The position numbers and the translations under genes were made by a program. A DNA stretch of 58,061 nt. Source: Hyphomicrobiales bacterium. GTDB taxonomy: Bacteria > Pseudomonadota > Alphaproteobacteria > Rhizobiales > Aestuariivirgaceae. The stretch spans positions 1 to 58,061 of the forward strand of contig JANYLQ010000059.1 in assembly GCA_025363755.1 (NCBI GenBank). The letters are read 5' to 3'. The notes beneath the pieces are model-generated. The model was not told the origin of the DNA and made no database searches. It was given only the letters and a program-made list of their open reading frames with translations. Every line of letters begins with the position of its first letter. Position 1 is the stretch's first letter. This document shows, piece after piece, positions 52,307 through 55,378 of this stretch.

Positions 52307-53644
52307 CTACACCAACATCAATCCCGGTTCTTCGAGATACATCTTAATAGCCCCGAGGAACTCGGCACCCAGCGCACCATCCACAGCCCGATGATCAGTC
52401 GATAGAGTCACACTCATCAACTGCTCAATCACAATGTCATTGCCCCGTACCACAGCGCGGCGCTCTCCGGCTCCCACAGCAAGGATCGTGGCTTGCGGTG
52501 GGTTCACGATAGCTTGGAAGTTTTTCACACCCATCATCCCCATGTTGGACACTGAGCAAGAGCCGCCCGTATATTCTGATGGGTTGAGTTTGCGAGATTT
52601 GGCGCGGGCCGCATAATCTTTCATCTCAATCGAGATTTGCGCCAGACCCTTGGTTTCGGCTTTGCGTACAATCGGCGTGATCAAGCCGCCGGGGATCGAC
52701 ACAGCCACGCCCACATCGGCGTGGTGGTGTTTTACCATGTTGTTTTCGGTCCAGCTCACATTGGCATCAGGCACTTTGATCAGCGCCATGGCCATGGCCT
52801 TGATCACGAAATCATTGACCGAGACTTTCCATGCAGGCTTGCCGTCTTTGTCTTTTGGCGCTTGCAGGTTGAGGCGCTCACGCAAGGCCAGCAAGTTTTC
52901 AAGCGAAATATCAACGGTCACATAAAAATGCGGAACGGTTTGTTTGGATTCGGTGAGGCGGCGCGCGATGGTCTTGCGCATGCCATCATGCGGCACGAGA
53001 TCGTATGACCCACTTTCGAACAATTTAAGAACGGATGCTTCGGAAATGGACGATGCGGCCACGTTCGCCCCCGAACTTGTGGCCGCACCTCGCGCGCCGA
53101 CTGTTGATTGGGGAGCAGTCTGCGACGTCTCTATATCTCTCGCGAGTATACGACCATACGGGCCTGAACCCGCAACGGATTGCAGACTGATGCTTTTTTG
53201 TGCAGCAAGGCGGCGGGCTAGCGGCGTAGCGAAAATACGACCGCCCTCTCCTGTCGCAACTTTCGTTGCGACTGTCTCTCCAGCGGGGGGAGAGACTTGG
53301 TTTGGTGTAGGCAATTGCGCTTTCTGAGTCTCTCCCTTCACGGGAGAGACAGGAGCTTTAGCGCCAGGAGAGGGCTGTGCAGCCACATCACTCAGCTTCT
53401 CACCCTCGCCCAAAATCACAGCAATTGGCGCGTTCACCAACACATCTTCTGTGCCTTCAGCTACAATAATCCTGCCCAAGGTACCTTCATCAATGGCTTC
53501 AATTTCCATTGTGGCTTTATCGGTTTCGATTTCGGCCAGAACATCACCTGATTTAACCTTATCGCCCTCTTTCTTGAGCCATTTGGCAAGCTTGCCCTTT
53601 TCCATGGTGGGTGAAAGAGCGGGCATGAGGATGGTGACGGGCAT
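52307..53644 (-). CDS. pdhC: Pyruvate dehydrogenase E2, dihydrolipoyl acetyltransferase
   Basis: Core of the pyruvate dehydrogenase complex. The 445-aa protein has an N-terminal lipoyl domain (about 1-78, lipoyl Lys in IETDKATME), a linker of about 45 aa encoded by a palindromic element, and a peripheral-subunit-binding domain (FATPLARRLAAQKS). A catalytic CAT domain follows, with HxxxD-type STDHRAVDGALGAEFL near the C-terminus. The linker ([13 protein letters not shown] and onwards) replaces the usual Ala/Pro/Lys-rich linker. AGAGAGG is the RBS. It is downstream of the DUF5076 gene. Confidence 0.96.
   Translation of the reverse strand: MPVTILMPALSPTMEKGKLAKWLKKEGDKVKSGDVLAEIETDKATMEIEAIDEGTLGRIIVAEGTEDVLVNAPIAVILGEGEKLSDVAAQPSPGAKAPVSPVKGETQKAQLPTPNQVSPPAGETVATKVATGEGGRIFATPLARRLAAQKSISLQSVAGSGPYGRILARDIETSQTAPQSTVGARGAATSSGANVAASSISEASVLKLFESGSYDLVPHDGMRKTIARRLTESKQTVPHFYVTVDISLENLLALRERLNLQAPKDKDGKPAWKVSVNDFVIKAMAMALIKVPDANVSWTENNMVKHHHADVGVAVSIPGGLITPIVRKAETKGLAQISIEMKDYAARAKSRKLNPSEYTGGSCSVSNMGMMGVKNFQAIVNPPQATILAVGAGERRAVVRGNDIVIEQLMSVTLSTDHRAVDGALGAEFLGAIKMYLEEPGLMLV
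53243..53375 (-). repeat. In-frame palindromic element in pdhC
   Basis: A 133-bp element inside pdhC, with perfect 11-bp terminal inverted repeats GCCCTCTCCTG (53243-53253) and CAGGAGAGGGC (53365-53375). On the coding strand it holds hairpins GTCTCTCCC-GTGAA-GGGAGAGAC, GTCTCTCC-CCCCGCT-GGAGAGAC and GTCGCAACGAAAGTTGCGAC. It is open through all its codons and encodes the linker after the lipoyl domain. A related 127-bp element lies in pdhB. Confidence 0.88.
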
Positions 53645-53658
53645 GGTTTTGCCTCTCT

Positions 53659-53994
53659 TTACTTGTTGTTCAGAACCGAGCTTTGGGCAGCAGCCTTGGC
53701 CAGATCTTCGGTCAAAGCTTTGCGAATAGCATCGAGATTGGCAGACACTGTGCCGTGGCCCATTTCAGCGCAAGCGCCTGCCACTTGTTGGGCAATGCCA
53801 GCTAATGCGTGACCCCACACATCTGCTTTACCAAATGCCATGGCATGAAGTGAGAGACTGAGTTGGCCTTTGGTAATCCAAACACGGGCAATTTCTCCAG
53901 CACCTGAATCATGAAACACTTCATGCGGCGGTTGGAGCTGATGGGGATGGTTTTCGTGGGAATGGTCGTGGTGATGGTGATCGTGGTCAGACAT
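53659..53994 (-). CDS. DUF5076 domain protein with His-rich N-terminus
   Basis: A 111-aa protein starting [19 protein letters not shown], a His-rich stretch likely to bind metal. The rest matches the DUF5076 pattern ([33 protein letters not shown]). Genes of this family are regular neighbours of pdhB/pdhC in alphaproteobacteria, but their role is unknown. ATG 53994 has an AAAGGAG site within the end of pdhB and overlaps its stop by 8 nt. Confidence 0.85.
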
Positions 53995-55378
53995 AGAGAA
54001 CTCCTTTGACGGCGGCCACAACATCATCAACGTTGGGCAACGCCAGTTTTTCTAAATTAGCAGCGTAAGGCATCGGCACGTCTTTACCTGCTACTCTTGC
54101 CACCGGGGCATCGAGATAATCAAAAGCATGCGTCATAATTTCGGCAGCAAGTTCCGATGTAACCGAGAAGCGCGGGAAACCTTCTTCCACGCAGACACAG
54201 CGATTGGTTTTCTTCACGCTGGCAACCACGGTTCCAATATCCATAGGGCGAATGGTGCGCAAATCGACCACTTCACATTCAATACCCTCAGCGGCCAACT
54301 TCCCAGCAGCTGCGAGCGCGTAAGTCATGCCAATACTGAAAGATACGATTGTCACATGATTGCCCGCGCGGGCAATGCGGGCTTTGCCGATGGGCACAAT
54401 CCAATCATCAAGCTTTGGCACCTCAAAGGACTTGCCATAGAGGATTTCATTTTCGAGGAAAATAATGGGGTTTGGATCGCGAATGGCGGCTTTCATCAAG
54501 CCTTTGGCATCAGCGGCAGAATATGGGGCAACCACTTTAAGTCCGGGGATTTGTGAATACCACGCCGTATAGTCTTGGCTGTGTTGTGCGCCCACGCGGG
54601 CTGCGGCACCATTAGGGCCACGGAACACAATGGGGCAACCCATTTGCCCACCGGACATATAAAGTGTTTTGGCAGCGGAGTTGATGATATGGTCAATGGC
54701 CTGCATGGCGAAGTTGAACGTCATGAATTCAACGATGGGTTTGAGGCCCGCAAAGGCCGCACCTGTGGCAATGCCAGTGAAGCCGTGTTCGGTAATCGGC
54801 GTATCAAGAACCCGCTCAGGGCCAAATTCATCTAGCATACCTTGCGAGATTTTGTAAGCACCTTGGTACTGGCCCACTTCCTCGCCCATCAAGAACACAT
54901 CCTTGTCGCGGCGCATTTCTTCGGACATAGCAGATCGCAAGGCTTCGCGTACTGTCATAGTGATCATTTCCGTGCCAGCGGGTATTTCGGGGTCGGAGAG
55001 GAGACTGCCCTCTCCTGCCGTGCTGCGCACGACTGTCTCTCCCGCGAGGGGAGAGACTTGAGGTGAAGGTGTCGCAACTTTCTGAGTCTCTCCGCTTGCC
55101 GGAGAGACAGGCGCCTTTGCGCCAGGAGAGGGCTGTGCCGAAGCCTCACCAATCACCGCAATTGGCGCATTCACTTTCACGCCCTCAGTTCCTTCCGGAA
55201 CCATAATCGCCGTAAGCACGCCTTCATCGATAGCTTCAATTTCCATTGTGGCTTTATCAGTTTCAATCTCGGCCAAAACATCGCCAGACTTTACTTGATC
55301 ACCGACTTTCTTAAGCCATTTGGAAAGCTTGCCCTCTTCCATGGTTGGGGATAGGGCGGGCATGAGGATGGTTGGCAT
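53987..55378 (-). CDS. pdhB: Pyruvate dehydrogenase E1 beta, with N-terminal lipoyl domain
   Basis: Beta subunit of E1. The 463-aa protein has an N-terminal lipoyl domain (about 1-77, IETDKATME), an element-encoded linker (about 80-125), and then the transketolase-type core: [30 protein letters not shown], and the C-terminal domain with [20 protein letters not shown] lipoyl domain on E1 beta is known in alphaproteobacteria. The linker has the same element family as pdhC. It starts 12 nt after the pdhA stop with a GGAG RBS. Confidence 0.96.
55007..55133 (-). repeat. In-frame palindromic element in pdhB
   Basis: A 127-bp element inside pdhB with the same 11-bp terminal inverted repeats, GCCCTCTCCTG (55007-55017) and CAGGAGAGGGC (55123-55133), as in pdhC. 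On the coding strand it has hairpins GGCGC-AAAG-GCGCC, GTCTCTCCG-CAAG-CGGAGAGAC (one base shared) and GTCTCTCCC-CTCG-CGGGAGAGAC. The frame stays open and encodes the linker after the lipoyl domain. Confidence 0.88.

Follow-up and report, generated by a model that had tools for sequence, protein, structure and literature searches.

The DNA examined here, a stretch of 58,061 nucleotides from a Hyphomicrobiales bacterium (hereafter the window), raises the question of how a palindromic element came to lie inside pdhC and to encode the linker between the lipoyl and subunit-binding domains of its product. An earlier note on this DNA had described a palindrome within pdhC with perfect 11-bp ends, three hairpins and an open frame, a description that was confirmed by hairpin, repeat and ORF analysis. 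The features of the locus are as follows.

52307..53644, minus strand: pdhC (E2, dihydrolipoamide acetyltransferase), 445 amino acids, from ORF and Pfam; Pfam domains Biotin_lipoyl at residues 4-77, E3_binding at 137-172 and 2-oxoacid_dh at 214-444
53244..53374, minus strand: palindromic element in pdhC, 131 bp, encoding residues 91-134 (...GE)
53243..53253, plus strand: terminal inverted repeat GCCCTCTCCTG, 11 bp, from repeat and hairpin search
53253..53272, no strand: side hairpin of the pdhC element, 8-bp stem, its sequence varying among element copies
53274..53296, no strand: main hairpin 1 of the pdhC element, GTCTCTCC..GGAGAGAC, 8-bp stem
53328..53350, no strand: main hairpin 2 of the pdhC element, GTCTCTCCC..GGGAGAGAC, 9-bp stem
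53365..53375, plus strand: terminal inverted repeat CAGGAGAGGGC, 11 bp, from repeat and hairpin search

The ends GCCCTCTCCTG and CAGGAGAGGGC are perfect inverted repeats. The pdhC frame crosses the element without a stop, and residues 91-134 fall between the lipoyl and E3-binding domains recognized by Pfam, which bears out the role of linker proposed in the note. In an AlphaFold2 model of PdhC built on a 16-row alignment (whole-model mean pLDDT 63), residues 91-130 have a mean pLDDT of 24-27, a low-confidence, disorder-like value, and the second PdhC linker (residues 176-199) is also below 50. Low predicted confidence across the element-encoded residues is what would be expected of a disordered linker.

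The symmetry of the element was compared with several shuffled controls. The 151-nt gene strand of the element folds with −77.9 kcal/mol (z −7.3), and none of 200 dinucleotide shuffles folded as well. The fold z of the window pdhC linker is −4.55 when its codon order is shuffled and just −1.54, a weak value, when synonymous codons are resampled from a pool that included element-bearing linkers. A search of Rfam gave 0 matches at gathering scores across 8 loci.

The window's own genome (G000; 3.23 Mb in 64 contigs) carries six full copies and one half copy of the window family, including a second copy in the window within pdhB that the earlier note had missed. The further copies, with the gene and hairpins of the pdhB copy, are as follows.

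53987..55378, minus strand: pdhB (E1 beta, with an N-terminal lipoyl domain), 463 amino acids, from ORF and Pfam
55008..55132, minus strand: second copy, 125 bp, in frame behind the lipoyl domain of pdhB (...GE)
55035..55057, no strand: main hairpin of the pdhB copy, from stem-pattern search
55086..55108, no strand: main hairpin of the pdhB copy, from stem-pattern search
C47:32135-32277: full copy, one of a pair enclosing a DUF559 gene
C47:32603-32739: full copy, the other of that pair
C45:60493-60621: full copy, intergenic
C57:35039-35164: full copy, intergenic
C49: half copy

The pdhB and pdhC copies are 81% identical across 113 aligned columns. The layout shared by the copies is end, side hairpin, main hairpin, spacer, main hairpin, side hairpin and end, within 125-143 bp, and the sequence of the side hairpins is not constant among them. 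The copies on C45 and C57 sit past the ends of gyrB-like and cysN/C-like frames, and both C47 copies lie between cysS-like and citramalate-synthase-like genes with the DUF559 gene enclosed (neighbours other than DUF559 were named by eye from translations). The open frame of that DUF559 gene (218 amino acids, stop to stop) traverses both elements, the right copy of which would give a C-terminal tail. Five of the six full copies are open in the frame used by pdhC and pdhB (frame +0), the copy on C57 having a stop; the reading of this frame starts with PSP and ends with GE in four of the open copies and ends differently in the one on C45.

Could the pdhC linker be an ordinary linker of the Ala/Pro type whose symmetry arose by chance? 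The position and length of the element fit the usual E2 linker, and the weak synonymous-codon z of the window linker would agree with such an origin. However, none of the dinucleotide shuffles matched its fold, none of the 66 pdhB linkers parsed from genomes outside the genus has a codon-order z below −1.84, and full copies are dispersed in the genome, two of them intergenic and two next to a DUF559 gene. At 11 sites of the 3.23-Mb genome the stem pattern GTCTCTCC-N3-12-GGAGAGAC is found, against 0 for the reversed control. It is this repetition across the genome that decides the matter against chance. The chance reading falls because of the dispersed copies, and we regard it as exceedingly improbable. 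The earlier note had held that an element confined to pdh genes would be an ordinary linker, and the copies beyond those genes remove that ground for doubt.

We therefore consider it highly probable that a dispersed palindromic repeat entered pdhC and pdhB in frame and that its copies today code for their flexible linkers. One copy of the repeat would have entered pdhC between the lipoyl and subunit-binding domains, and a sister copy would have entered pdhB likewise. The frame used appears to read as a flexible peptide rich in Pro, Ser, Gly, Glu and Lys (PSP..GE), so that copies arriving in this frame within disordered linkers may have been tolerated and kept. Older linker sequence would have been lost after arrival, so that the length of the linker stayed about constant, and movement would have proceeded without target duplication, with a DUF559 nuclease as the candidate partner.

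The loss of an older linker is suggested by comparison with relatives. Of 61 genomes, 57 gave a PdhC match, among them 34 of the 37 genus members, and some of these matches are second E2 genes. The linkers were parsed from open frames, which for the genus yielded 28 from pdhC and 21 from pdhB, the remainder being cut at contig ends or unparsed, and no PdhC match listed has an internal stop. Elements, judged by eye from hairpins and reading and unblinded, are present in 10 of the 28 pdhC and six of the 21 pdhB linkers. The element-free linkers of the genus are of the ordinary Ala/Pro type and nearly equal in length, with means for element versus ordinary linkers of 54 versus 47 codons in pdhC and 53 versus 43 in pdhB. 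Since length is nearly equal with and without it, the element (some 42 codons) appears to replace the ordinary linker and not to be added to it. No clean empty site was found in the pdhC of relatives, where ordinary linkers of similar length stand instead, and for this reason we infer insertion at pdhC rather than observe it; either an insertion after which the old linker was lost or recombinational replacement would account for the element there.

Shuffling of codon order separates the two kinds of linker, with z from −3.05 to −9.45 in 15 of the 16 element linkers (the exception being the pdhC element linker of genome G016, at −0.47) and from −1.65 to +1.92 in the 33 ordinary ones. Outside the genus, element-like palindromes are present in two of 71 parsed pdhC linkers, both from Rhodopseudomonas (L050 and L101). 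The linkers of the second E2 genes, which we assume to be of the sucB type, had no element visible by eye in the 17 parsed of 20 regions, that of the own genome not being among those parsed, so such linkers have not all been struck; two of these linkers with no visible element have z of −2.67 and −3.40. Three Rhizobium pdhC linkers (L042, L061 and L086) have a common reading, PRDE/PQDE..PEVP, with little palindrome (z −0.7 to −1.6), and are possibly one common insert that has eroded.

The elements at the pdhC and pdhB linkers belong to several families, which have like anatomy and different ends and stems; the families in relatives were missed in the earlier note. Dispersed copies were searched over the genus for three of these families, those of the window, of G036 and of G002. 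The window family has matches in two of the 37 genus genomes at E 1e-4, and, with both strands counted, the pdhC element of G036 was matched 37 times in G036 itself, 34 times in G016 and 24 times in G021. The G002 family is complete in both the pdhC and the pdhB of G002 (83%), at G003:C44, where a DUF559 gene adjoins, and at G021:C232, and is elsewhere mostly in halves. The second pdhC linker of G016 and of G002 also holds half elements. On a PdhC tree of 32 rows that left out the first linker and had 29 inner branches (16 starred, nine open), the minimum numbers of changes are at least five for presence and at least eight for family, the outgroup row L050 being counted, and for pdhB at least five changes of family are required over 20 rows. 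As judged from these sequence comparisons, elements probably replaced the older linker and then turned over.

Repeated arrivals would be unnecessary if one ancestral element had diverged in place, or if gene conversion had acted between pdhB and pdhC. Such a history would explain why the pdhB and pdhC copies of G000 and of G003 share a family and some residues, why in G013 and G002, too, the two genes carry a common family, and why some pdhC element is present in all five genomes of one clade. However, the families at the linker are unlike in ends and stems, and those of the window and of G036 are dispersed in their own genomes, although that of G002 is there found mostly as half matches. Moreover, the pdhB and pdhC elements of G016 belong to different families, G005 has an element in pdhB alone and G034, G029, G007 and G012 have one in pdhC alone. 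Divergence in place or conversion is thus rather unlikely, and we favour repeated arrival of the repeats.

In-frame insertion was also seen in other enzyme genes. Among 38 copies and half copies inspected in context, most of them from the G036 family, ten are spanned by a frame of 80 amino acids or more, and six of these frames were tested for protein families. Three of them gave a recognized family above the cut-off, namely a CobN-like chelatase (in G036 and G016) and an OHCU decarboxylase (in G021). An insert of ∼37 codons is present in one and absent from 12 of the OHCU decarboxylases (13 of 30 loci aligned). In CobN (28 of 30 loci aligned) the sister G036 family is present in three, other inserts in six and none in 19. 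A few residues flanking the OHCU and CobN inserts differ from the empty sites. In-frame insertion with empty sites in relatives is thus shown, by sequence alignment, for the sister family in both enzymes. Five of the other CobN inserts (L306-L310, from G018, G001, G031, G019 and G011) are at the same place, two of them (G001 and G031) with paired hairpins and three without. Those of G018, G001 and G031 read alike (..RASF/ASS..KDR.VKPG..). The CobN of G008 (L311) has an insert reading SPLRRQGSRFGT..KRDSHLRGNDE upstream of the common place, in which a hairpin of at least 7 bp was not found.

The earlier note had further proposed a frame-preserving insertion with a 2-bp target duplication, and this part did not hold. 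The pdhC and pdhB copies measure 131 and 125 bp, and the bases just outside the 11-bp ends are mismatched, being CC/TG in pdhC and CT/TG in pdhB. None of 34 dispersed copies has the same 2 bp on both sides of its BLAST ends. Flanking direct repeats of at least 5 bp were likewise absent from all 34 copies, most of which are of the G036 family, compared with a rate of 4.6% for random placements. A scan for duplications of 3-10 bp in the six own copies gave a 4-bp repeat for pdhB alone, with the ends shifted. Target duplication of 2 bp or of 3-10 bp is thus unsupported by the flank scans. The end pattern CCCTCTCCTG has 12 sites in the own genome, 11 of which are ends of the six elements. When this genome was searched for a transposon bounded by such ends, no transposase was noticed within the 3 kb around the sole lone CCCTCTCCTG site. 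Beside that result, the elements do flank DUF559 genes, a neighbourhood that the earlier note did not mention.

PF04480 (DUF559) has 79 matches in 32 of the 37 genus genomes, of which 70 were examined; 64 of these had flanks long enough on either side. Any perfect-stem hairpin (at least 8 bp) within 250 bp was found on both sides of 36, on one side of 21 and on neither side of seven of these 64 loci, compared with 1, 3 and 21 of 25 OHCU genes and 3, 75 and 322 of 400 random placements. Counting only hairpins with the C-rich stem motif of the elements, which was chosen after the hairpins were viewed, gave 30, 21 and 13 of 64 (51 of 64 in total), compared with 0, 0 and 25 of the OHCU genes and 0, 7 and 393 of the random placements; at 1000-1250 bp from 20 genus DUF559 loci with long flanks the counts were 0, 0 and 20. 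The association recurs across the Alphaproteobacteria, where PF04480 is present in 68 of 289 genomes. Among 29 new loci picked by score, one per genome, 28 were usable (one was too short), with any hairpin on both, one or neither side of 12, 15 and 1 and farther away 0, 6 and 22. The motif counts for the class were 9, 13 and 6 (22 of 28 in total) and farther away 0, 0 and 28. The any-hairpin controls reach 16-21%, and the motif count is sharper yet lowers the DUF559 totals from 57 to 51 of 64 and from 27 to 22 of 28.

Within a DUF559 locus the left hairpin resembles the right more closely than hairpins of different loci resemble each other (similarity 0.878 versus 0.732; 0 of 500 permutations; 51 loci), with a similarity of at least 0.9 in 31 of the 51, and part of this likeness could be explained by genome composition. 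All 11 genomes with a pdh element have DUF559, as do 12 of the 17 that lack one (Fisher p 0.12). Across the 37 genomes the number of DUF559 genes correlates with that of G036-family matches (rho 0.65, both strands counted and kinship uncorrected), in part by construction because DUF559-flanking elements enter the count.

Vsr-like nucleases serve in the homing of introns and inteins. The pattern FrRQ...DF...E-D-G...H is kept across 94 DUF559 rows, and the DUF559 protein of the own genome matches an endonuclease-like protein (PDB 3hrl, E 9e-25). According to the available text of PMC12907096, the Caulobacter DUF559 protein VsrA is a proposed Vsr-like endonuclease; 'palindrom' occurs 0 times in that text, and no report of DUF559 together with palindromes was found in the literature searched. 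From association and not from mechanism, we tentatively propose that DUF559, as a putative nuclease, is the mobilizing partner of the palindromes. It is also conceivable, if somewhat doubtful, that element-DUF559-element units are autonomous and solo palindromes non-autonomous members of an unnamed class of mobile elements in Alphaproteobacteria, which would spread by nicking and repair copying without target duplication and whose PSP..GE frame would rebuild disordered linkers. The chances are about even that the DUF559 genes are instead passive cargo or a hotspot for palindromes that another enzyme moves. In favour of that reading, the motif hairpin is absent at 13 of 64 genus and 6 of 28 class loci, and, of the three DUF559 genes in the own genome, that on C1 has no hairpin within 250 bp and that on C2 has one on one side only. 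Against passive carriage stand the two-sided motif hairpins of the genus loci (30 of 64, with none at the 25 OHCU genes or the 400 random placements), the likeness of left and right hairpins within a locus and the recurrence of the association across the class.

The likeness to Rickettsia palindromic elements (RPE) drawn in the earlier note is apt as a matter of behaviour. In the portions of the accounts consulted, RPE are short, fall into several families and occur both between genes and in frame within enzyme genes (PMC10969869, PMC6649704). The elements described here are likewise palindromic repeats of ∼100-150 bp in several families that occur in frame within protein genes with empty sites, the latter for the sister family, as pdhC itself shows replacement only. 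Unlike RPE, they have a Hyphomicrobiales host, one linker is re-occupied by different families and linker length is kept; in those same portions RPE have no nuclease partner, unlike the DUF559 link found here. Repetitive extragenic palindromes (REPs) inside genes have also been described, with insertions in flexible linkers or loops suggested to be neutral in the part of PMC3733652 available. The present elements resemble such intragenic GTAG/CGTC REPs in these respects, but they are longer and composite with terminal repeats, have DUF559 genes nearby and have no tag common to the six own copies, only one GTAG/CTAC (pdhC) and one CGTC/GACG (C47b). They are like MITEs, going by excerpts of PMC10969869 and PMC2759123, in being short repeats with terminal inverted repeats able to enter genes in frame, and unlike them in that target duplication was not found; nor was a transposon sharing their ends noticed in the own genome. 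Br-REP1 and Br-REP2 of Bradyrhizobium, in the section of PMC5082802 at hand, are multi-stem-loop palindromic repeats of the same order that change fast between relatives; they are described there as intergenic, whereas the present elements are partly in genes and have other sequences.

As RPE and intragenic REPs behave alike, in-frame palindromic elements are already known as a kind. What is new to us is that different families have repeatedly occupied a single linker position, that linker length has been conserved and that DUF559 genes are associated with the elements. One central enzyme whose swinging-arm linkers have apparently been rebuilt several times from different palindromes provides natural replicates, so that the origin and tolerance of disordered linkers become directly testable.

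GANTC sites, which we take to be of the CcrM type, are present in the window at 53326-53330 and 55084-55088 and were found in four of the six own-genome copies.
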